A stretch of DNA of 64,000 nucleotides from the NCBI GenBank assembly GCA_028287285.1, contig JAQBPY010000246.1:1-64000 (forward strand). Reading direction: 5' to 3'. Of this stretch, positions 17,819-28,925 are shown in pieces. Each line of letters starts with the position of its first letter. Position 1 is the first letter of the stretch. Under the pieces are notes generated by a model. That model saw only the letters and a list, made by a program, of their open reading frames with translations. It made no database searches and was not told the origin of the DNA. The translations under genes were made by a program, and so were the position numbers. This DNA is from Gemmatimonadota bacterium. GTDB lineage: Bacteria; Gemmatimonadota; Gemmatimonadetes; Gemmatimonadales; Gemmatimonadaceae.

Positions 17819-19645
17819 TCAATACGCCTGATCCCACGACAGTGACAGCCGCGCCGCCGAATCAATGATCCCGACCATGCTGTAGGTCTGCACAAAATTT
17901 CCCCACTGCTCTCCGGTGACCGTGTCGATGTCCTCGGAGAGCAGCCCATGGCGCCCTCGCGACGCAAGAATGTTCTCGAACAGCACGCGGGCCTCGTCGC
18001 GCCGGCCCAGCGCGGCCAGCGCATTGATGTACCAGAACGTGCACGCAAGAAACGCATTCTCCGGGAATCCGAAATCATCGCGCTCGGAGTAGCGATAGAT
18101 AAAGTTCCCATGACGCAGCTCCGCCTCTATCGCCCCCACCGTGCTAATGAAGCGCGGATCATCGGCGGCAAGAAACCCCACTTCGTGCAGGCGCAGCAGG
18201 CTCGCGTCGAGTGTGTCGCCATCCATTGCCGCCACGAAGCTCTGGCGCTCTGCATTCCACGACCGCTCGCAGATCACGTCGTGCAAACGACTCGCTTCGG
18301 CGGCCCAGTGCTGCGACTCCCCCGCGAGCTCGAGATGCGCGGCGATGCGCGCGAGCCTGTCGCATGCTGCCCAGCACATCACGCTCGAGAACGTGTGCAC
18401 GCGCGTCGTTCCACGCAGCTCCCAGATACCCGCGTCGGGTTGATCGAACAGCCGGGCCGCCCGAACGCCGAGTGCCTCGAGACTGCGAAAGAGGGCGAGG
18501 TCGCCCCGCTCCACGAGCCGCTCGTCGAAGAACGCATGCGGCGCCGCGAGCACCACGGCACCATAAACGTCGTGCTGGATCTGCTCCTGCGCCTCGTTGC
18601 CGATGCGCACCGGACCCATGCCACGATACCCGGTGAGACCGGGCATGCTCGCTTCCTTTGGCGCCGGCCGGCCACTGATGCCGTACAGCGGCTTGATGCG
18701 TCCGTCGCCCACACTCGACACGATATCGAGGATGTAATGGAGATACCGCTCCATCGTGTGCGTCGCACCAAGCCGGTTGAGTGCGTTCACCACGAAATAC
18801 GCGTCGCGCAGCCAGCAGTAGCGATAGTCCCATGTGCGCGGCGTGTCGGGCGCCTCCGGCACCGACGTCGTCATGGCCGCGATGATCGCGCCCGTGTCCT
18901 CATAGACGTTCAGCTTGAGCGTGATGGCCGCACGAATTACCGCCGCCTGCCACTCAAAGGGAATGGCCAGCGACCGAACCCACGTCCGCCAGTACGCAAT
19001 AGTCTCACTCTCGAGATGCCGCCCCATCTCGGCCACATTCGTCGGCACCGTCTCGTCCGCACCAATCAGCATGGTGATGGAATCGTCCAGCGAAAAGGTA
19101 TTGCCCTCGAGGATCGCGGTGATCGACGCGTCCGTGGTAAGACGGAGCACAGTGGGCGATCCGTGAAAGCGGATGTGATTGCTGCCGCTGGTAGCGGGCG
19201 CGCCGCTCGCGCCGTAGTCACGTGCGGGATGCAGGCAGACATTGAGACGGGGCTTGCCCGCGATGCGCCTTACCTGCCGTACCAGCATCATGGGGCAGAA
19301 CACGCGGCCAAACTGCCGGAAGCGCGGTGCAAAGTCCCTGATCTCGATGGCGCCGCCATCGCTGTCGAACATTCTCGTGACGAGCACTGGTGTGTTGACG
19401 AGATATTCCTGTTCTACACGCGTACTGTTCAGGAGGGTGATCCGGAACTCGCCGGCGTTGTCGTCACGCGGACGATCACGCAATAGCGTGCAGAACATTG
19501 GGTCGCCGTCAAAGCGCGGAAAGCACGACCACACGACGCTGCCGTGCTCATCGATCAGTGCGCCAATGGTTCCGTTGCCAATGAGCGCGAGGTCGAGTGA
19601 GGTCATGCCCATTGCGTTAGCAAGTTGTTTACCGTCGTCTCGCAT
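17819..19645 (-). CDS. GH15 family glucoamylase/trehalase-like protein
   Basis: 608 residues. The N-terminal trehalase-like beta-domain begins LDLALIGNGTIGALIDEHGSVVW, typical of bacterial GH15. The (alpha/alpha)6 catalytic domain has WDYRYCWLRDAYFVVNAL (about 268), GNEAQEQIQHDVYG (general acid Glu region, about 350) and FPENAFLACTFWYINALAALGR (second catalytic Glu, about 555). Such proteins hydrolyse alpha-glucosidic bonds of malto-oligosaccharides or trehalose in the cytoplasm. Nearness to glgX-treZ-treY suggests glycogen/trehalose turnover. Divergent from the FNT channel gene with a 23-base gap. Confidence 0.92.
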   Translation of the reverse strand: MRDDGKQLANAMGMTSLDLALIGNGTIGALIDEHGSVVWSCFPRFDGDPMFCTLLRDRPRDDNAGEFRITLLNSTRVEQEYLVNTPVLVTRMFDSDGGAIEIRDFAPRFRQFGRVFCPMMLVRQVRRIAGKPRLNVCLHPARDYGASGAPATSGSNHIRFHGSPTVLRLTTDASITAILEGNTFSLDDSITMLIGADETVPTNVAEMGRHLESETIAYWRTWVRSLAIPFEWQAAVIRAAITLKLNVYEDTGAIIAAMTTSVPEAPDTPRTWDYRYCWLRDAYFVVNALNRLGATHTMERYLHYILDIVSSVGDGRIKPLYGISGRPAPKEASMPGLTGYRGMGPVRIGNEAQEQIQHDVYGAVVLAAPHAFFDERLVERGDLALFRSLEALGVRAARLFDQPDAGIWELRGTTRVHTFSSVMCWAACDRLARIAAHLELAGESQHWAAEASRLHDVICERSWNAERQSFVAAMDGDTLDASLLRLHEVGFLAADDPRFISTVGAIEAELRHGNFIYRYSERDDFGFPENAFLACTFWYINALAALGRRDEARVLFENILASRGRHGLLSEDIDTVTGEQWGNFVQTYSMVGIIDSAARLSLSWDQAY

Positions 19646-19668
19646 GATGGTTGCCTCGTACCGAGAAC

Positions 19669-20469
19669 ATGAGTCCCAGCGCGGAGTCCAGCGAAAAGGC
19701 CAGGGAAGCCGAGTCCCTCGATGCCGAGACCACCTATGAGGTCATTCGTCGGGAGGGGCTGCACGAGCTGGACCGTGCGTCGAGCGCGCTCTTCTGGTCT
19801 GGGCTCGCGGGCGGTTTGTCCATGGGCTTTTCGTTCCTGGCCGAAGGACTGCTCCGCGCCCATCTGCCGGATGCGGATTGGCGTCCGCTCGTCACGAGGC
19901 TTGGCTACAGCGTCGGGTTCCTCATCGTGATCCTGGGCAGCCAGCAACTCTTTACGGAAAACACGCTCACCCCGATCGTTCCCCTCCTGCACCAGTGGTC
20001 TGCGCGCCGTCTGCGCAATGTGGGCCGCCTCTGGGGCGTGGTGCTCATGGCCAACATCCTGGGCGCACTTCTGTTCGCGACTGCGCTCGCGCGCTTCGAT
20101 ATCGTCGAGCCAGTCACCATGCATGCGCTTGACGATCTCGCGCGAGAGGCGCTCGCGCCCGGTGCGCCGGCCACCGGGCTTCACGCCATCTATGCGGGTT
20201 GGCTCATTGCGCTGATGGTGTGGATGCTTCCGGGTGCGGAATCGGGTAAGATCACCGTCGTCATCATCATGACGTACCTCGTGGGACTGGGCGGCTTTGC
20301 CCATGTCATTGCGGGCTCGACGGAGGTGCTGTACGCCGTCATGCGCGGCGACATCGGTGCCGGCCGTGCGGTGTTCGGTTACATATTTCCCACACTCATC
20401 GGGAACGTACTGGGCGGGTTGACGATGGTGGCCGCGCTGAATCACGCGCAGGCCACGAGCGGAGACTAG
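19669..20469 (+). CDS. Formate/nitrite transporter (FNT) family channel
   Basis: 266 residues. After a polar N-terminus come six predicted spans with FNT hallmarks: LFWSGLAGGLSMGFSFLAEG, GFLIVILGSQQLFTENTLTP, GRLWGVVLMANILGALLF, MVWMLPGAESGKITVVIIMTYLVGLGGFAHVIAGS and IFPTLIGNVLGGLTMVA (cited as landmarks). The Q-L-F-T-E-N segment is characteristic of a non-FocA subgroup. It probably passes small monovalent anions across the inner membrane. ATG at 19669 is chosen; TTG at 19651 is also in frame. The stop lies inside the 9-bp repeat flanking the palindromic insertion. Confidence 0.9.
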   Translation: MSPSAESSEKAREAESLDAETTYEVIRREGLHELDRASSALFWSGLAGGLSMGFSFLAEGLLRAHLPDADWRPLVTRLGYSVGFLIVILGSQQLFTENTLTPIVPLLHQWSARRLRNVGRLWGVVLMANILGALLFATALARFDIVEPVTMHALDDLAREALAPGAPATGLHAIYAGWLIALMVWMLPGAESGKITVVIIMTYLVGLGGFAHVIAGSTEVLYAVMRGDIGAGRAVFGYIFPTLIGNVLGGLTMVAALNHAQATSGD

Positions 20470-20675
20470 TGGCATGCTGTTCAGTTAGCTGTCATCCCGC
20501 AAGAATACTTTAGACTGTCATCCCGCAGGAGCGAAGCGACTGTCGGGAGCCGCTGTCCCGTCCTGGGAAGTTCGGGATGCGGAAAGTATATCCCGACACT
20601 CGTTCGCTTCGTGCGGGATGACAGTCTACAACGCGCCTGCGACGACAGCTAACTGAACAGCATTGCGACTAGTGG
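20464..20675. mobile_element. MITE-like palindromic element with 20-bp inverted ends and 9-bp flanking duplication
   Basis: Outer arms 20474-20493 and 20644-20663 are perfect 20-bp inverted repeats (ATGCTGTTCAGTTAGCTGTC and its complement). Inside are nested TGTCATCCCGCA/TGCGGGATGACA arms of the dispersed repeat. GACTAGTGG occurs just outside on both sides (20464-20472 and 20667-20675), with one extra base on the left and three on the right. This resembles a target-site duplication. No protein is encoded. It follows the FNT stop codon directly. Confidence 0.6.
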
Positions 20676-20702
20676 ACTGTTTCTGAATTACAGAGAGCGG
20701 AC

Positions 20703-20781
20703 GTCGTCGTCCTGAGCGAAGCGAAGGACCTGTTTGTGCTGGCAAAGGAGCAGGTCCTTCGCTTTTGCTCAAGGACGAAGG
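20703..20781. repeat. Inverted CCTGAGCGAAGCGAAGGACCTG repeat
   Basis: The left arm CGTCCTGAGCGAAGCGAAGG plus ACCTG pairs imperfectly with the right arm GCAGGTCCTTCGCTTTTGCT plus CAAGGACG across about 17 bases. Partial copies are seen elsewhere in this window. It lies immediately upstream of the MscS gene and may give its transcript a stem-loop. With the preceding palindrome it fills the 355-base gap between FNT and MscS genes, which has no gene. Confidence 0.6.
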
Positions 20782-20824
20782 CAGTCCTCGCACGCGGCAC
20801 AGTGGATGCGCTATCAGCCGCATC

Positions 20825-21619
20825 ATGTTCTCCTATGAATCCCTTCGGGCATCGAGCGCGGCCATCTTTGCCGCGCTGCCCCGTGTCCTTGCCGCCCTCG
20901 CCTTTGTACTCGTCGCAATTTTCATAGCGCGATCCGCACGCTGGGCAGCAGAGCGCACACTGCGCTCCAAGGCCACCCACGCGAACCTTCGCGCGGCACT
21001 GGGCCGTCTGGTGTTCACCGTCGTGATTGCGGTGGGCATTCTCATTGCCGCGACCATCGCCTTTCCCACCTTCACGGTGGGCAGCCTCATTCAGCTCCTG
21101 GGCGTGAGTGGTGTGGTGATTGGTTTCGCCTTCAAGGACATCTTCCAGAATTTCCTTGCCGGCATTCTCCTGCTCGTCACGGATCCGTTCGAGGTGGGCG
21201 ACGAGATCGTCATCGACAAGTTCGAGGGAACCGTAAAGGACGTGCAGGGCCGCGCAACGGTGATAGAGACGTACGACCGGCGAATCATCATCGTACCAAA
21301 CGCGGATCTGTTCACGAAGGTGGTGACGGTGAACACCGCTCATCACCGGCGCGAAGGCCAGTGCGACGTGATCGTCAAAGGCACAACGGACATTACGCGG
21401 GTTCAACAGCTGCTCGAGCGTACTGTGCGCGGCAAGATTGAAGGAGTTGACGACGATCCGCTCGCCGCAGCGCTGCTCGTGTCCATTGGCGGCGGCGCGC
21501 TCACCTTCCGCCTGCTCTGGTGGAGCGGCTCGGAGCGCAGCGTATACCTGGCCGTGCAGGATCGCGTGCTCACCAGGGTGTTCGAGGCACTTCGCGCCGA
21601 GCAGCTCGAGATAGGCTGA
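20825..21619 (+). CDS. Small-conductance mechanosensitive channel, MscS family
   Basis: 264 residues. It has N-terminal spans around residues 12-32 and 55-80. The pore helix and beta-domain core follow: LIQLLGVSGVVIGFAFKDIFQNFLAGILLL (landmarks GVSG, FAFKD, NFLAG), DPFEVGDEIVIDKFEGTV and RIIIVPNADLF. Matches compact MscS. It opens under membrane tension to release osmolytes. ATG at 20825 (MFSYES) is preferred over the TTG 60 bases upstream. The stop overlaps the next small ORF in TGATG, implying coupled translation. Confidence 0.92.
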   Translation: MFSYESLRASSAAIFAALPRVLAALAFVLVAIFIARSARWAAERTLRSKATHANLRAALGRLVFTVVIAVGILIAATIAFPTFTVGSLIQLLGVSGVVIGFAFKDIFQNFLAGILLLVTDPFEVGDEIVIDKFEGTVKDVQGRATVIETYDRRIIIVPNADLFTKVVTVNTAHHRREGQCDVIVKGTTDITRVQQLLERTVRGKIEGVDDDPLAAALLVSIGGGALTFRLLWWSGSERSVYLAVQDRVLTRVFEALRAEQLEIG

Positions 21620-21828
21620 TGAAACACCGTAACCCACCAACCAAGGCACGCATGACAGGGCCATACGACTCCGCAGGCAGCGAAGAGCGTCCAACGGAGA
21701 AAGAGGACGAAGTCGACGAGAGCTCCGACGAAAGCTTTCCCGCGAGTGATCCACCGTCATGGACACCGGCGCATTCCGGAGCACCTGCACCAGTACAAGC
21801 CGACGACACAGGGCGCAGTCCGTCGTGA
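21619..21828 (+). CDS. Small acidic SDESFPASDPPSW protein
   Basis: 69 residues. The centre reads VDESSDESFPASDPPSWTPA, a signature seen in many short uncharacterised bacterial proteins (commonly ESFPASDPPS). Flanks are polar and probably disordered. Translation is coupled to MscS through TGATG, and a strong terminator follows nine bases after the stop. The function of this family is not known to me. The association with MscS suggests osmotic stress. Confidence 0.75.
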   Translation: MKHRNPPTKARMTGPYDSAGSEERPTEKEDEVDESSDESFPASDPPSWTPAHSGAPAPVQADDTGRSPS

Positions 21829-21836
21829 CGCACGAG

Positions 21837-21872
21837 ATGAAGGGTGCCTCGCCACAGCGAGGCACCCTTCAT
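21837..21872. terminator. Strong bidirectional hairpin terminator
   Basis: A perfect 16-bp stem (ATGAAGGGTGCCTCGC and its complement) with the loop CACA. It lies between the MscS operon end (21828) and the convergent DUF4142 gene end (21883), so it can serve both strands. There is no long T-tract on either side. Confidence 0.75.
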
Positions 21873-21882
21873 GTCCAGGGCG

Positions 21883-22590
21883 TTACGATGTTGGAGGAAG
21901 CTGGCGCAGAACCGCCTGTGCATCGCCCAGATGGCGCCTCACGGTGGTGATGGTCTGATCCACCAGGGCCTGCGTGTCACCGCTGGCCTGCCCGCGCAGG
22001 AGTCCGAGCTCGTGCAGCATGTGCTGGTGCATCATGACCTCCGTCTGCATCAGACGCTGGTCGAACATCGGCCCCGCCGGAGTGGCCGCGAGCCGGCGCA
22101 TTGCGTGTCCCGCCATCGCCGCATCGGCTGTATCCGTAGGCACCGGCGCGAGCAGAACGCCGCTCTGGACACCGGTCTGGTTTGCGGCCTGCAGATGTGC
22201 GGAGTGCGCAGTGACCATGCGCTTCGCAAAATCCCGGACCGCGGCGTTCTGCGCCCGGTCCGCCCCGAGCTTTGACAGGTTGATCTCGAGCGAGTCTCCT
22301 TCACCCATGTGCGCCAGGATGTTCGCGTTGGTGAAGGTCGCGATGCTCGCAGGCATCAGCCCCATCACCATGCCGCTGCGTCCCCCCATGTGCAGGGCCC
22401 CCGATGCGTCCATCCACATTCCACCTGCGGAGTCCGCCCACATCCCGCTCGTGTCAGGAAAAAGTGCGACGTCTCCACCGGAGCTGCTCATCGTGGGCGC
22501 CGGTGTCGTCGTCACGGGTGTCGTGGAGCACGCTGCGCCGAGCGCAGCAGCGGCGGCGATCATCAAATGTCGTGGCATTCGTGTTGGCAT
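21883..22590 (-). CDS. DUF4142 lipoprotein, ferritin-like
   Basis: 235 residues, starting at 22590 with GGAGGG four bases upstream. The leader MIAAAAALGAACST carries a lipobox-like GAAC, so an envelope lipoprotein is likely. After a Thr/Pro/Ser linker, residues about 95-235 are all-helical with DFAKRMVTAHSAHLQ and LMQTEVMMHQHMLHEL, the DUF4142 pattern. DUF4142 is a ferritin-like predicted outer-surface domain of unknown role. It is unusually Met/His-rich (GMWMD, MVMGLM, MMHQHM), which might mean metal contact. No operon partner. Confidence 0.85.
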   Translation of the reverse strand: MPTRMPRHLMIAAAAALGAACSTTPVTTTPAPTMSSSGGDVALFPDTSGMWADSAGGMWMDASGALHMGGRSGMVMGLMPASIATFTNANILAHMGEGDSLEINLSKLGADRAQNAAVRDFAKRMVTAHSAHLQAANQTGVQSGVLLAPVPTDTADAAMAGHAMRRLAATPAGPMFDQRLMQTEVMMHQHMLHELGLLRGQASGDTQALVDQTITTVRRHLGDAQAVLRQLPPTS

Positions 22591-22698
22591 ACGACCCTCC
22601 ATGGAAGCTATCCCGAGTGTTCGAGCGACTTTACCCATTGTCGCGCAAATGCCGGGCCTTCATGACGTACATGAAGAAGAAGGGACCTGCTTCGTCTG

Positions 22699-24105
22699 CT
22701 AACAGCCCCGCTTGGCCAGATACGTGAGCTCGTTGGCCACGTCATCCTGCAACACACGGTTCACCCACTCCACACCCTGCGCCACCGAGTGGTCCATGTT
22801 GCCCACCTCGTATCGCCACGCACCGAACCGCCCACGCGAATAGATGTCCCTGCTCTCGAGCCACGGATGCAGCACACCCAACGCCGCATCGCGCTCCACG
22901 GACGGCGTGGGATACGTATGCTCGCGCTCGATCACGTGCGTGTCCACGATATCCGCCCGATCACGCTCACTGAGAAGCCGAGTGTTCACCATGCCCTGGA
23001 TGGTGTCTTCAATTACCCGCCCACGATCCACGGGCTTGAACTCCGAATGCGACACCTCGGCGAGCAGCGAATAGTGCGTTGTCGCATCGGGCACAACTTC
23101 GGGCGAATAGTTGGACAGATACGTTACCCGGTAAAAGGGCGCATTGTCCTCCGGGAAGTACATCCAACACTTATTGGATGGTGTGGGCTGCCTGAGCCCC
23201 ACTCCGATGATGTAACTCCCCGAATGACGCAACCGGCTAGCCTGGCAACGCACTTCGTCGGGCACGGTGCCCTTCATCGAAGACACGAGCAAGTCCAGCG
23301 GCATCGTGCTGAGCAGCATGTCGTACGGCTCACGCGTGCCATCCTCGAGCACGACCTCCTTTGCATCCGCATCCACTCCCACAACGGAAGCCCCGAGCCG
23401 CAACTGGTCGTTCACGTAAGGCCGCATGCGCTCGAACAAACCGCCCGTGCCGCCATGACGCGGATACTTGAACGTGGAGTTGGGACCCCAGCCGGCATCG
23501 TCACGGTCCAGCACCACGTTGCCGAGCACCCGCGCGATGTCCACCACCGACACACGCTCGCCAATCCACTCCTTGTTCATCAGGCTGGCCGGATGCGCCC
23601 ACACCTTGAAGTTGTACGGCGTCATGAAATGCTTCGCGATACCCTTGCCGAACACACCAAGGATGAGCTCCTCGAAGTTCCTGAACTTCGACATGTCGAG
23701 CGGCTGCTTCTGCGCTTCGATCACGCCCATCAGGCACTCGTAAACAACCTCCTTTGGCAGGTACTTGATGTTGTTCTGGAAGGGATACGGCAGGAACCGA
23801 TCACACATCCACACCCAGCTCTCACGCAGCAGCAGCTGATACTCATCGCCAAGCAGCGTGTCGAAGAGCTTGTCGAAGTACTCGTAGTGCGAAAAGAGAA
23901 CGTGCCCGCCAATGTCGTAGATGAAACCATTCGCGCTCGTCTCGCTCGCCGCCAAGCCACCAACCTTGTTGCGTGACTCGAGCATCACGAAGTTCGTGTA
24001 CCCCAGCTCCCGAAGACGATACGCGGCACCGAGTCCCGTGGGCCCCGCGCCAATGACCACGATGCGCGGCTGTTCCGCACCTGGACCTGCATTCATGCGT
24101 TGCAT
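22699..24105 (-). CDS. UDP-galactopyranose mutase-like / amine-oxidase-fold flavoprotein
   Basis: 468 residues. The FAD-binding Rossmann motif VVIGAGPTGLGAAYRL (about 17-32) is followed by E-S-R-N-K-V-GGLA and DIGGHVLFSH. A later WRYEVGNMDHSVAQG closes the FAD site. The order GGHxxFSH, PYPFQNNI, TPYNFKVWAHP is like UDP-galactopyranose mutase and its relatives. It may interconvert pyranose and furanose forms of a nucleotide sugar or oxidise a glycan intermediate. Its start overlaps the end of the GH1-RmlD fusion gene by 13 bases, so the two are surely co-transcribed. The substrate is unproven. Confidence 0.82.
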   Translation of the reverse strand: MQRMNAGPGAEQPRIVVIGAGPTGLGAAYRLRELGYTNFVMLESRNKVGGLAASETSANGFIYDIGGHVLFSHYEYFDKLFDTLLGDEYQLLLRESWVWMCDRFLPYPFQNNIKYLPKEVVYECLMGVIEAQKQPLDMSKFRNFEELILGVFGKGIAKHFMTPYNFKVWAHPASLMNKEWIGERVSVVDIARVLGNVVLDRDDAGWGPNSTFKYPRHGGTGGLFERMRPYVNDQLRLGASVVGVDADAKEVVLEDGTREPYDMLLSTMPLDLLVSSMKGTVPDEVRCQASRLRHSGSYIIGVGLRQPTPSNKCWMYFPEDNAPFYRVTYLSNYSPEVVPDATTHYSLLAEVSHSEFKPVDRGRVIEDTIQGMVNTRLLSERDRADIVDTHVIEREHTYPTPSVERDAALGVLHPWLESRDIYSRGRFGAWRYEVGNMDHSVAQGVEWVNRVLQDDVANELTYLAKRGC

Positions 24106-26285
24106 GTTTCGAGTGAATGTGTGAAAGTGGATCGTTGGGCGAGGAACCGCCCGATCGCATCGTCAAGGGAGGGCATCACCGATGCGCGCTCACTGCCCAG
24201 CACCGAGTAGGACGGCCGTGCCGCGAGGTAGCCCAGGGTCTGGTGGGACCGTTCACAGACCAGCGATGCATCGAGATGCGATCGATCTGCCACGCGCCTC
24301 GCGAGCTCCGCCCAGCTCACCGCGCCGTCGTTGGCGAGATGCCAGATACCGCGCTCGCCATCGATCAGGAGATCGAGTGCGGCGTTGACGAGGTCCGGCA
24401 CATACGTAGGCGATATCACGAGGTCGCCCGCCGCCTGCACGGGAATGCCATCTTGCAGCGAGCGAAGCGTCTGGGTCAAAAAATTGTATTCGTCCCACGG
24501 GCCAAAGAACGCCGACGTCCGAATCACGAGCGCAGAGGGCAGCAGTGCCATCACCCGCGACTCCGCGCGCGCCTTGCTCGCGCCGTAGGTGCCAAGGGGC
24601 GACACATGATCCGTCTCCACGTATGGCGTCCGCTTCCGCCCGTCGAACACGAGGTCCGACGAGAACGTCATCAGTGGGATGCCTACGTCGGCACACGCCG
24701 CCGCCAGCGTCGCCGCACCCAGCGCATTGGCCCTCCGGCAATCCCTGGGCTGCACCTCCGCGTCATCCACGCGCACGAAACCCGCAGTGTTGACCACGGC
24801 CCATGCCGCGCAGGTCTCCAGGGCGTGCGATACCGCCGCGCGGTCGGTGATGTCGAGATCGCGGTGCGAGCGAGCGCAGCACGCAAGGCCACGGTCGGCA
24901 CAGGTGCGCGCGAACGCCACACCGAGTGTTCCCGACGCGCCCACCACGAGCAGGGGCCGCGCATCATGTTCGGCGGCTGGAACCGCGACTTCATCCGACC
25001 GATACGACAGCCGAGGCGCACATCGCCACCAGCCCGGCGTATCGAGCACCGGGTGCTCGAACGTGCCGTTCGCTGCCAGCGAGTGCACCATGGAGGACAG
25101 CGCTGTTGCACGAGGAGCGGGAGCACGAATGTCGAACAGCCCCGGCTCGTAGTGACCGTCCATGCGGGTAACGAGCGAGCTCCAGTCATGCGCACCCAAC
25201 GCCGCCCACGCGGTAACGGCGCGGACGTCGGCACCCTCGGTCCGCGCACTCGCCGCGCCATTCCATACTTCATGAAACCACCTGAGCTGCTGCTCTCGGG
25301 TGCAGCCCAGGTGGACTTCAGAGACCACCAGCGGCAGGCCGTATCGCGACCACGCCTCACGCAGCAGCGACGCGGGTCCTGCAGCGCCCTCCGGCATGGC
25401 GCGCACCGCTTCCACGTCGGCATATCGGTGCCGTCCGTTGCCCCCATGCGTGTGCGGCGGATAGTGCTCGAGGCGCTCGTCGATCCAGCGCTCGCTGGTC
25501 ACATAGTGATTGATGCCAAGGAGATCCGGTGGGCATCCGTCGCCCGTGGCATGGGCGATGTCACTGTCGGAGATGCCCAGCCATTGCACGTACTCGTGCA
25601 TGGCATGGCCGTGTGCGACCCGGTTCGTGAGCAGATCGAAGGTGAGCCACCGCCGCTCGTTCTCGAAGTCTGCCTGGTACTGGAGCGCCGGTGTCGCGTG
25701 GGTCCGGCCAAGGTCCTCCGTCTGGAGCAGCTTCGCGCCGGGCGTGATGGTTCGAATGGCCTCCATCGCAAGGCGAACGGCGCGCACCTGGTTGAGCGTG
25801 GCGCGAACGAAGCGCGCATCGTCCCGCACATGCGGATACCACAACCCGTACAGCGCGCTGAATCGCGCCGTCGTCAGCGGCTCATTGACCGGCGTGAAGC
25901 GCGTGATCCACGGGTACCGGATGCAGACCTTGCGTGCAAACGCCGCCAGCCCTTCCGCGAAGCCCTCATGGAGGAGGTTGGTGTTGAAGGGACCGCTGCC
26001 ATGGTGGACGAGCCCCACGATGGGCTCCACGCCCAGGGCAAGCATCCGGAACATTCGCTCATCGAGTGCACGCCACCGTTCGGAGGTGGGCGCTTCGTGC
26101 GCGAAGCGTTCCCACAGGACCGGGTATCGCACCGCACTGACACCGAGCGCCGCAATGCGCTCAATGTCCTCCAGGCGATCATAGTGGCCGGACAGCGCAA
26201 GCTGATCATGTTGGGCATCGCCAACACGATTCAGGGTGCACTCGAGACCTGCCCATACTTCCATGGGCTCTCGATGGGACGGCAT
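24093..26285 (-). CDS. GH1-like domain fused to RmlD-like sugar-nucleotide reductase
   Basis: 730 residues in two domains. Residues 1-430 form a GH1/clan A barrel with TPVNEP (acid/base Glu, about 132), GINHY and SEVHLG (nucleophile Glu, about 323). Residues 440-720 form an extended SDR fold with VVGASGTLG (about 450), MTFSSDLVFDG and YGASKARAE (Y-x-x-x-K, about 568). This part resembles dTDP-4-dehydrorhamnose reductase. The combination suggests one protein that both handles a glycoside and reduces a keto sugar, or a GH1 fold used as binding module. It sits upstream of the UGM-like gene and downstream of the glycosyltransferase (24-base gap), forming a three-gene operon. No signal peptide. 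Confidence 0.85.
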   Translation of the reverse strand: MPSHREPMEVWAGLECTLNRVGDAQHDQLALSGHYDRLEDIERIAALGVSAVRYPVLWERFAHEAPTSERWRALDERMFRMLALGVEPIVGLVHHGSGPFNTNLLHEGFAEGLAAFARKVCIRYPWITRFTPVNEPLTTARFSALYGLWYPHVRDDARFVRATLNQVRAVRLAMEAIRTITPGAKLLQTEDLGRTHATPALQYQADFENERRWLTFDLLTNRVAHGHAMHEYVQWLGISDSDIAHATGDGCPPDLLGINHYVTSERWIDERLEHYPPHTHGGNGRHRYADVEAVRAMPEGAAGPASLLREAWSRYGLPLVVSEVHLGCTREQQLRWFHEVWNGAASARTEGADVRAVTAWAALGAHDWSSLVTRMDGHYEPGLFDIRAPAPRATALSSMVHSLAANGTFEHPVLDTPGWWRCAPRLSYRSDEVAVPAAEHDARPLLVVGASGTLGVAFARTCADRGLACCARSHRDLDITDRAAVSHALETCAAWAVVNTAGFVRVDDAEVQPRDCRRANALGAATLAAACADVGIPLMTFSSDLVFDGRKRTPYVETDHVSPLGTYGASKARAESRVMALLPSALVIRTSAFFGPWDEYNFLTQTLRSLQDGIPVQAAGDLVISPTYVPDLVNAALDLLIDGERGIWHLANDGAVSWAELARRVADRSHLDASLVCERSHQTLGYLAARPSYSVLGSERASVMPSLDDAIGRFLAQRSTFTHSLETCNA

Positions 26286-26309: not shown

Positions 26310-27545
26310 TCAGCCAATGTCCTCACGTGACGACGCGAAGGCCGCACGGGGCGGCATGGCGCGCTCGATGAGCGTGGCTGCGGCCGCGCGCGACTTTTGC
26401 CGCTCGCTGCGCCCGCGGGCACGCACTGCGTCCTGGAGAATTCGCTCCATCTGACCCACGATGCTTTCCCACGAATTGTTTCGCGCCTGCTCCACACCGC
26501 GTGCGATGAGTGCATGATCGGGGTCGTCGAGCGCCCGCTGCACGCAGGTGCAGAAATCGGCTGGTGAATAGGCGACGCTCACCACGGGGGTAAAGTTGCG
26601 CACCACATCGGACACCGCCGTGGAGACGATGGGTTTGGCCGCCGCCATGTACTCCAGGGTCTTCGTCGGGTTGATGTATTCCGTGGCCTCGTTGAGCGCG
26701 AAGGGCATGAGGCAGACGTCGAAGGCCTTCACGATGGCGGGCAGCTCCGTGTAATCCTTCTGACCCAACCAATGAATGTTGGGCGCCTGCGGCAGCTCCT
26801 CGGCAGCAACCTTTACTACCGGCCCCACCATCACGACCGAGATGTCGGGCAGTGCCTGGGCGAGATGCGCCAGCAGCGGGTAGTCGATGCGCTCGTCGAT
26901 GACGCCGTAATATCCGGCAATGCGGCCGCCAACGGCCGCGAGTCCCTCAGGAACCTCCGTGTCGTGCAACCGTGCCTTGCCAAAGTGCGCCACATCCACG
27001 CCACAGCCAAAGAAGTGCACGTTGGTGTGATGTCTGGCTTTCGATTGCGACAGCTTGTAACCGCCCGTGAAGACGACGTCTGCCTCGGACATCAGGAGCA
27101 TCTCGCGGTCGATCAGCTCGCGGGGCGCGAACCGGAACTTCGAGAGCTCATCCATGCAGTCGTACACGATGGCCTTTTCGCCGAACGCACCGATCATCGC
27201 GGGCGCCGCCATTGGCGTGTAGAACCACTGCACCGGCTTGTCGAAGAGTCCGCCCAGCACGCCATCGTCACTCGTGTGGCGGCGGATCAGCTCGCGCGTA
27301 ATCTCTATGGATGTATCGTACCTGTCACGAAGTGCCGACGGAAACATGGGTACGGCGCGATACACATTCGTCATCGGCTGCGTGATGTCGAGCCTGGGCA
27401 TGCTGTGCCCGTCCAGGAAGATCGGCTCTTCCACGAAGAGCACCACATTGTGCCGGCTCATTCGGGACAGGAGTTGTTGCGGGCGCTGCCAGACAAAGTC
27501 CCAGCGCAGGTGGCTGTGAACGATGATTGGGGTATCCAGTTGCAT
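26310..27545 (-). CDS. GT-B glycosyltransferase (GT1/GT4-like)
   Basis: 411 residues. N-terminal half: IIVHSHLRWDFVWQRPQQL, a known start for polysaccharide glycosyltransferases of this type, then YDCMDELSKF. C-terminal half: RIAGYYGVIDERIDY and the donor-site region EYINPTKTLEYMAAAKPIVST (about 290-310). It transfers a sugar from a nucleotide donor onto a glycan or lipid acceptor. The start ATG at 27545 is chosen because upstream frame sequence lacks similarity; no clear ribosome site is visible. First gene of the operon with the GH1-RmlD fusion and UGM-like genes. A GTACG-type palindrome lies about 105 bases upstream. Confidence 0.88.
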   Translation of the reverse strand: MQLDTPIIVHSHLRWDFVWQRPQQLLSRMSRHNVVLFVEEPIFLDGHSMPRLDITQPMTNVYRAVPMFPSALRDRYDTSIEITRELIRRHTSDDGVLGGLFDKPVQWFYTPMAAPAMIGAFGEKAIVYDCMDELSKFRFAPRELIDREMLLMSEADVVFTGGYKLSQSKARHHTNVHFFGCGVDVAHFGKARLHDTEVPEGLAAVGGRIAGYYGVIDERIDYPLLAHLAQALPDISVVMVGPVVKVAAEELPQAPNIHWLGQKDYTELPAIVKAFDVCLMPFALNEATEYINPTKTLEYMAAAKPIVSTAVSDVVRNFTPVVSVAYSPADFCTCVQRALDDPDHALIARGVEQARNNSWESIVGQMERILQDAVRARGRSERQKSRAAAATLIERAMPPRAAFASSREDIG

Positions 27546-27672: not shown

Positions 27673-27705
27673 AACAAAAACGCACCGGCCTGCAAGCCGG
27701 TGCGT
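27673..27705 (-). terminator. Rho-independent terminator of the second GH1-like gene
   Basis: A 10-bp GC-rich stem, ACGCACCGGC (27680-27689) with its complement (27696-27705), and loop CTGCAA. Read on the minus strand it is followed by TTTTTG. It lies 24 bases after the stop of the gene at 27729. Confidence 0.85.
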
Positions 27706-27728
27706 CATGGAGAACAGCCGTGACGTAG

Positions 27729-28925
27729 TCAGCCGATACGTTGTATCGGCATCTCGTCCACGACGCCCGCGCGCCATGCCTGAATGATTTCCTTGTAGCG
27801 CACTCCCACCGGGCGAATGCGACGCTTGAGGTCGTAGAGTCCCACCGGATGCAGCTCATTGCGCTCGACGCGCAACGCATGCTGCCAGTCGATCTGGTCG
27901 GTGAGTGAGTACCAGGTGAAGCCCGTTATAGGAATACCGGTGCGGCGCATGGCGGCCACGTCGGCAAACTGCTCGTCCAGCCACTGCACCGCGTGGGTGT
28001 TCACGCGATTCGTCTCACAATGAAAGATGGGTACCTGGTATCGCTGGTAGTACTGCGTGGCCAGCTGCCGAAAGCCCATGGCCGAGGCATGATTGCTCGT
28101 GCACCGCCCCGTCGACATGACCCGATGCTCGCAGGACGGATAGTAGTCCACGCCCAGCCAGCGCTGCCCCACCGCGCGCTTTTCGCGGAAAAAGCTGAGG
28201 TCGTTGGAGGTGACGCCATAGTCATGAAGAAAGCGAGCCATGCCGGGCGCGAGCTCGTGGCCCATGGTGAGATCTACGGACAGGTGCTTCAGCCCGTTCA
28301 GCCGGTCGGCCTGGTGCGTGGCATAGCGCCCCACCGCATGGAAATGCTCGATGGATTCACCTTGCACGATGGTGGCGTCCGGTCGCTCGGAGAGAATGGC
28401 CTCGACCGCCAGTTCGTGCGCCATGCACAGGTTGCGCATCGCGCGCACAAAGGCTGCGTCGCTCGTCTCGCACTCGTTCCACCAGCCACGGAGCGCGGAA
28501 AATGACGCGCACACGAAGATCTCGTTCACCGGCGTGAAGTACCGGATCCAGGGGTAGCGGTGGGCAAAGGCGCGTGCGTATTCCGCGAAGAGCACGGGGA
28601 ACGCGGGATCCTGGAATCCGCCAAGCCAGGAGGGTACGCCAAAGTGACACAGGTCCGCGATGACCGTGATGCCAAGGTCCCGCAAGCGGTACATCTGCGC
28701 GTCCGCGACGTCCCAGTCGTAGACGTGCGGCGCCGTGTGCACCCGATAGTACGGCGGTCCGTAGCGCAGCGCATCGAGGCCCATCTCACGCACCAGGGCA
28801 AAGTCTTCCTCCCACCGGGCGTAGTGGCCGCATTTGTCCATCTGATCAATGCGCGCGCCACCGGCGATCGTGGGATAGCTGTTCTCTATTCCGGTGGCGA
28901 AAAGGAACGGGAGGGATGACGACAT
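27729..28925 (-). CDS. GH1-like (clan A barrel) protein
   Basis: 398 residues from MSSSLPFLFATGIENSYP, which matches the family start better than the open frame to 29021. A (beta/alpha)8 barrel with YGPPYYRVH, RYFTPVNEIF (Glu, about 132), GVDYYPS and IFHCETNRV (Glu, about 302). It is related in layout to the N-terminal half of the fusion protein at 24093 (compare YPWI-RFTPVNE). The second Glu context is unlike the usual ENG, so specificity is uncertain; glycosidase activity on a cell-surface or imported glycan is possible. It has its own terminator and is separated from the glycosyltransferase operon. Confidence 0.82.
   Translation of the reverse strand: MSSSLPFLFATGIENSYPTIAGGARIDQMDKCGHYARWEEDFALVREMGLDALRYGPPYYRVHTAPHVYDWDVADAQMYRLRDLGITVIADLCHFGVPSWLGGFQDPAFPVLFAEYARAFAHRYPWIRYFTPVNEIFVCASFSALRGWWNECETSDAAFVRAMRNLCMAHELAVEAILSERPDATIVQGESIEHFHAVGRYATHQADRLNGLKHLSVDLTMGHELAPGMARFLHDYGVTSNDLSFFREKRAVGQRWLGVDYYPSCEHRVMSTGRCTSNHASAMGFRQLATQYYQRYQVPIFHCETNRVNTHAVQWLDEQFADVAAMRRTGIPITGFTWYSLTDQIDWQHALRVERNELHPVGLYDLKRRIRPVGVRYKEIIQAWRAGVVDEMPIQRIG

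Follow-up and report, generated by a model that had tools for sequence, protein, structure and literature searches.

Galactofuranose has mostly been studied as a cell-wall sugar of pathogens. The UDP-galactopyranose mutases (UGMs) that are known fall into a eukaryotic and a bacterial class, which have merely 14–18% identity with each other (PMC3624792). Proteins annotated as 'family 1 glycosylhydrolase' are already recorded beside a UGM gene (glf), for example in Gloeothece (WP_013334485.1) and Deinococcus aetherius (WP_264778046.1), and the papers we found describe no function, module or domain loss for them. We have analysed a member of the same family encoded in a 64,000-nucleotide stretch of a Gemmatimonadota genome (GenBank assembly GCA_028287285.1, contig JAQBPY010000246.1, positions 1 to 64,000; hereafter, the window). 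In this 730-residue protein, a half related to glycoside hydrolase family 1 (GH1) is joined to a short-chain dehydrogenase/reductase (SDR) half that resembles RmlD, and its gene stands beside those of a UGM and a glycosyltransferase (GT). Our literature searches on the fusion, on the module that these genes form and on UGM together with the general stress sigma factor EcfG returned no paper describing them.

The GH1-SDR fusion protein

The 730-codon frame of the fusion (24093–26285, minus strand) is unbroken. Two Pfam domains were detected above their cut-offs: Glyco_hydro_1 at residues 28–370 (27.8 bits; cut-off 22.6) and RmlD_sub_bind at residues 445–701 (197.6 bits; cut-off 27). An AlphaFold2 model, for which 54 natural homologues were the input, had a mean predicted local distance difference test score (pLDDT) of 93 and a predicted template modelling score (pTM) of 0.93. 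In Foldseek searches, the C-terminal half matched RmlD (1vl0; template modelling score TMt 0.91, root-mean-square deviation 1.7), and the N-terminal half matched GH1 β-glucosidases with a TMt of about 0.7. A chance fusion is excluded, because dozens of genomes from different phyla encode full-length relatives. These data confirmed that the protein is a genuine fusion of a divergent GH1 barrel and an RmlD-like SDR. A preliminary description of the locus had spoken of two catalytic-looking halves, and both the domain search and the structure prediction bear this out, as do the conserved catalytic residues described below. The N-terminus is not hydrophobic and, therefore, no signal peptide is expected.

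The GH1-like half spans residues 8–425 (25011–26264, minus strand). It shares with the GH1 β-glycosidases (PF00232; UnBGl1, 9j41, and T. maritima BglA, 1od0) the TIM-barrel fold, the NEP acid/base motif and, on the strand where it is expected, a nucleophile Glu. The two glutamate motifs that had been read from the sequence, TPVNEP (N134-E135) and SEVHLG (E323), are indeed present, and both are conserved. The acid/base E135 (codon 25881–25883) and the nucleophile E323 (codon 25317–25319) were invariant among 54 of 54 diverse homologues. Family members with such a glutamate pair are retaining β-glycosidases or transglycosidases. The identity to the two solved enzymes is about 15–24%, and several motifs differ: in the fused half, the TENG type is replaced by VTEVHLG, HWD-P by HHGSG and Q-x-E by G-x-E. 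Unlike those enzymes, it is joined to an SDR, is predicted to be cytoplasmic and is tied to a UGM and a GT. It did not reach the β-glucosidase equivalog TIGR03356 (47.5 bits versus a cut-off of 478.5). Judged by its sequence, the GH1 half is a GH1 relative and not a standard β-glucosidase.

The SDR half spans residues 442–717 (24135–24962, minus strand) and has the RmlD fold. In common with the dTDP-4-dehydrorhamnose reductases (1vl0, 3sc6), it carries a GxxGxxG motif (GASGTLG, residues 449–455) and the Ser/Tyr/Lys residues. The Y-x-x-x-K motif claimed in the preliminary description corresponds to YGASK, in which Y567 (codon 24585–24587) and K571 (codon 24573–24575) were each kept in 52 of the 54 homologues; the cofactor residues expected of an SDR are thus in place in the C-terminal half. 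The differences from RmlD are the following. The fused SDR has RTSAFFGPWDEYNF at the position where the RmlD type has RTAWVYG. It scored below the RmlD equivalog TIGR01214 (193.8 bits versus 224.05), a cut-off that a few of its homologues barely reach. The fusion SDRs formed one clade, to which none of 20 stand-alone RmlD-like proteins from the fusion genomes belonged; identity between the two groups is only about 25–33%. Finally, the domain has been lost in several lineages. We concluded from these comparisons that the SDR half is distinct from the housekeeping RmlD. Each of the 20 fusion genomes that we tested also had other RmlD-like genes (14 over the curated cut-off), and RmlC was found in 19. 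A bifunctional rhamnose enzyme was, therefore, ruled out, since separate RmlD-like genes and nearly always RmlC are present and the fused SDR is a clade of its own that several lineages have lost.

The two halves have had different fates. The GT-glf operon of Ensifer has, as its third gene, one for a 456-residue protein that consists of the GH1 half only. On two Mesorhizobium plasmids, the SDR is reduced to a short remnant with the GT-glf operon intact. Among the sphingomonads, one copy has an SDR without the Lys (L178) and three have a decayed SDR (L179–L181), and the GH1 glutamates are intact in all of them. The two exceptions to the Tyr/Lys conservation are Thermomicrobiales copies (L041 and L079), having Leu and Ala or Gln at these positions. 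In two Hymenobacter and one Solirubrum (L040, L043 and L056), the halves are encoded by separate consecutive genes. Invariant columns make up 13% of the GH1 half and 7% of the SDR half (p 0.004). Because the Glu pair is invariant, the SDR has been lost or has decayed repeatedly and the GH1 half is richer in invariant columns, the sequence comparison identifies the GH1 half as the core and the SDR half as an accessory. The repeated loss of the reductase points to the GH1 half as the one to assay first. A broken copy of the fusion, in which the GH1 half is split over two frames near residue 160, was also seen (L092; G024:C2:4947032-4949199).

The three-gene module and its distribution

Scanning a single genome for each species, we found 105 loci encoding the fusion and kept 80 of them. 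Nearly all of these are full length, at about 45–61% identity. The hosts belong to Cyanobacteria, Bacteroidota, Acidobacteria, Chloroflexi, Actinobacteria, Proteobacteria, Bacteriovoracaceae and Gemmatimonadota, and include many soil and desert bacteria. Plasmid records, in which the protein is mostly annotated as 'family 1 glycosylhydrolase', add Deinococcus, Sphingobium, Sphingomonas, Caballeronia, Azospirillum, Runella and rhizobia. Two or three fusion copies per genome were observed in Microvirga (G072 and G073), Leptolyngbya (G075) and Azospirillum (L131).

Neighbours were counted at the 61 loci that had enough flanking sequence, with a distance limit of 6.5 kb. A UGM was present at 50 loci, a GT at 50 and both at 48, and the usual gene order is GT-UGM-fusion. 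In some cyanobacteria and sphingomonads, the GT and the UGM form one long protein. Genes for GalK, GalT or GalE were near 27 of the 61 loci, and a glycoside hydrolase family 2 (GH2) gene was near 16.

The type of UGM in this slot is variable. A D. radiodurans-like enzyme of the bacterial class (compare 3hdq) occurs at 44 loci and is the type found in most of the other modules; a divergent bacterial UGM occurs at four (L033, L071, L073 and L074), and a distant relative with 31% identity to the window UGM at two (L050 and L065). In Gemmatimonadota, the slot is occupied by the eukaryotic class. The window UGM gene (22699–24105, minus strand, with a start at 24105 or 24096) matched the T. cruzi enzyme of the eukaryotic class (4dsg) over its full length, with 422.7 bits over 12–464, compared to 24.1 bits for the E. 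coli UGM 1i8t. The Gly-Gly-His loop (IGGHV) and the equivalent of the uracil-binding Gln107 of AfUGM (YPFQNNI), the roles of which have been described (PMC3624792), could both be aligned. By these sequence criteria, the flavoprotein is a UGM of the eukaryotic class, encoded within a bacterial operon. A UGM-like flavoprotein beside the fusion had been noted before, with its eukaryotic class missed; the 13-base gene overlap reported with it applies if the UGM starts at M1, and a start at M4 gives the common 4-base ATGA overlap.

A eukaryotic-class UGM also adjoins the fusion in Gemmatimonadota relatives. Among 246 genomes of the window's class, the fusion was present in 10, a eukaryotic-class UGM in 8 and both in 7 (Fisher p about 1e-10). 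The UGM has been swapped for other kinds while its neighbours stay, which argues that the supply of UDP-galactofuranose is the step that the module needs. On this comparative evidence, UDP-galactofuranose supply is well supported as the conserved step, and the repeated replacement offers a clean genomic argument for the reaction that the module requires. The window genome has a second eukaryotic-class UGM, 48% identical, elsewhere (G000:C347:5475-6797).

The GT of the window (26310–27545, minus strand) is TuaH-like, with a Glyco_trans_1_4 domain, and is the neighbour conserved at 50 of the 61 loci. It does not reach the TuaH equivalog NF047676 (70 bits versus 550), and is thus a related non-member. 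Of the neighbours listed in the preliminary description, the GT and the UGM are conserved across genomes; a second, stand-alone GH1 gene is found near the module mainly in Gemmatimonadota. The conserved module, as far as gene neighbourhoods indicate, is of three genes (UGM, GT and fusion) and not of four.

Promoter motifs and the proposed function

The motif of the general stress sigma factor EcfG in S. melonis Fr1 is GGAAC-N17-20-GTT (PMC6599016). At the sphingomonad loci with a divergent GT, GGAAC-N17/18-GTT was present upstream of the GT in 10 of 13 cases, compared to 3% expected, and it preceded the fusion at 8 of 30 sphingomonad loci. Control motifs (the reversed motif and two wrong spacings) gave 0–1 matches. 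The sphingomonad loci are interrelated, so that p-values for the motif are overstated. EcfG-like boxes also precede rhizobial, Microvirga and Azospirillum copies. These observations are suggestive of control of the module by the general stress response in some lineages, namely alphaproteobacteria. We did not use as evidence the S. melonis Fr1 transcripts 1750 ('Glycosyltransferase') and 1751 ('Glycosidases') reported in PMC6599016, as the genes were not identified: a search of 399 genomes around a sphingomonad bin did not recover the 1751 motif. Moreover, the label 'Glycosidases' usually denotes the amylase group.

As the best explanation, we tentatively propose that the UGM, the TuaH-like GT and the GH1-SDR protein form a cytoplasmic module that makes and remodels a galactofuranose-containing glycoside, under stress control in some lineages. 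In the first step, which homology and gene replacement support well, the UGM would turn UDP-galactopyranose into UDP-galactofuranose, the galactose often coming through the neighbouring GH2, GalK, GalT and GalE gene products. The single GT could then transfer the galactofuranose, or build its acceptor, to give a small glycoside or glycolipid. Because the module has just one GT, and because no flippase, polymerase or exporter is conserved with it, such a product is favoured over a polymer. By its Glu pair, the GH1 half is a predicted retaining β-glycosidase, and it may hydrolyse or transglycosylate that glycoside or its precursor in the cytoplasm. The weakest step is the last one, in which the SDR half might act as an accessory NAD(P)H-dependent reductase of the RmlD type on a related keto-sugar.

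Several points weigh against this proposal. Eleven of the 61 loci, for example Microvirga copies, have no UGM inside 6.5 kb, and the link is therefore not absolute. The GH1 residues of the -1 subsite are unlike those of classic β-glucosidases, which makes the bound sugar uncertain. A PDB search with the window GT gave no match, that is, no solved relative, and its donor is uncertain. The argument for stress control consists of the motif, in alphaproteobacteria only, and no motif of the EcfG type was found before the window's own GT. A fuller version of the proposal is a stress-induced pathway, shared across phyla, to a new small galactofuranosyl compound (a protectant glycoside or glycolipid); remodelling or transglycosylation by the cytoplasmic GH1 half would be a step specific to this pathway, and the optional reductase would make a product variant. 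We regard this version as doubtful. A conserved galactofuranose module that occurs in crust cyanobacteria, Hymenobacter, Deinococcus, sphingomonads and rhizobia, and is linked in some of them to the general stress response, would mean that the sugar helps bacteria to survive stress in the environment, and it would provide a setting for the many proteins that at present have no other name than 'family 1 glycosylhydrolase'.

The GH2, GalK, GalT and GalE genes beside the module could also be understood differently. The GH1 half, together with the GH2 neighbours, might cleave imported or membrane-derived β-galactosides, and GalK, GalT, GalE and UGM would channel the galactose into a surface glycan. 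In that case, the fusion would stand upstream of the UGM and would not act on its product. β-Galactosidases do exist within the GH1 and GH2 families. Many copies, however, keep the GT and the UGM without an adjacent GalK, GalT or GH2 gene, and a supply enzyme need not stay so closely bound to a UGM and a GT, so that we consider galactose supply an unlikely function.

Assembly of an exopolysaccharide, where a secreted polymer would receive galactofuranose from the module and be trimmed by the GH1 half, is consistent with the frequency of UGM and GT genes in such loci, and soil or crust organisms rich in exopolysaccharide are numerous among the hosts. It appears quite unlikely, since no conserved flippase, polymerase, initiating transferase or exporter was seen in the clusters and annotated regions inspected, there is just one GT and the module is often plasmid-borne.

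The preliminary description had suggested a route to an unusual glycan or furanose. The furanose direction of that suggestion agrees with our data, which point to galactofuranose. In one form of such a route, the SDR half and the UGM would jointly make an unusual (deoxy)furanose nucleotide. Fcf1 and Fcf2, which reportedly make dTDP-fucofuranose, would be an analogous pair, and the SDR motifs intact in most copies, the RmlD fold and the adjacent UGM all fit. The SDR is, nevertheless, unlikely to make the key nucleotide sugar, because Ensifer lacks it, it has decayed in Mesorhizobium and several sphingomonads, and the two Thermomicrobiales copies have lost Tyr/Lys, while the GT, the UGM and the GH1 half persist where it is absent or decayed. 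Moreover, no rmlA, rmlB or rmlC is among the recurrent neighbours, and the module UGM is closest to true UDP-galactopyranose mutases. As a whole, the joint deoxyfuranose route is improbable.

The least probable alternative, that the SDR half guards the UGM by clearing inhibitory 4-keto-6-deoxy nucleotide sugars while the GH1 half has a metabolic role, draws on the published inhibition of a fungal UGM by UDP-4-keto-6-deoxyglucose (Ki 222 uM; PMC5698552) and would explain an RmlD-like domain that is tied to the UGM yet dispensable, but most of the genomes have other RmlDs able to do the job.

The stand-alone GH1 gene and other neighbours

The second stand-alone GH1-like gene that had been placed next to the fusion locus is present at 27729–28925 (minus strand), and its product is 28% identical to the fused GH1. 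A terminator-like hairpin with 12 pairs and a T tract lies between it and the GT (27679–27706, minus strand). Our hairpin scan was overall at chance level (four sites versus 4.1 expected), and the 27706–27679 stem was by far the best. As this hairpin sits between the two genes, the stand-alone GH1 gene is probably a separate transcript from the module. Most of its occurrences near the module are in Gemmatimonadota; L044 and L077 are isolated cases outside this phylum. A four-gene operon was ruled out, the second GH1 gene being behind the terminator-like hairpin and a rare neighbour outside Gemmatimonadota.

On the other side of the module, the region 17819–22638 encodes a GH15/trehalase-like enzyme, a formate/nitrite transporter, a mechanosensitive channel and a DUF4142 protein; these genes are possibly a stress gene cluster. 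DUF4142, ferritin-like, PRC-barrel and PAS genes recur near other module copies, and a Crp-type regulator is also found around the window copy. In Nostoc and relatives (L012–L037), genes that we named by sequence reading alone as GH43-like, phytanoyl-CoA dioxygenase-like and M24 peptidase-like recur within 8 kb of the modules.

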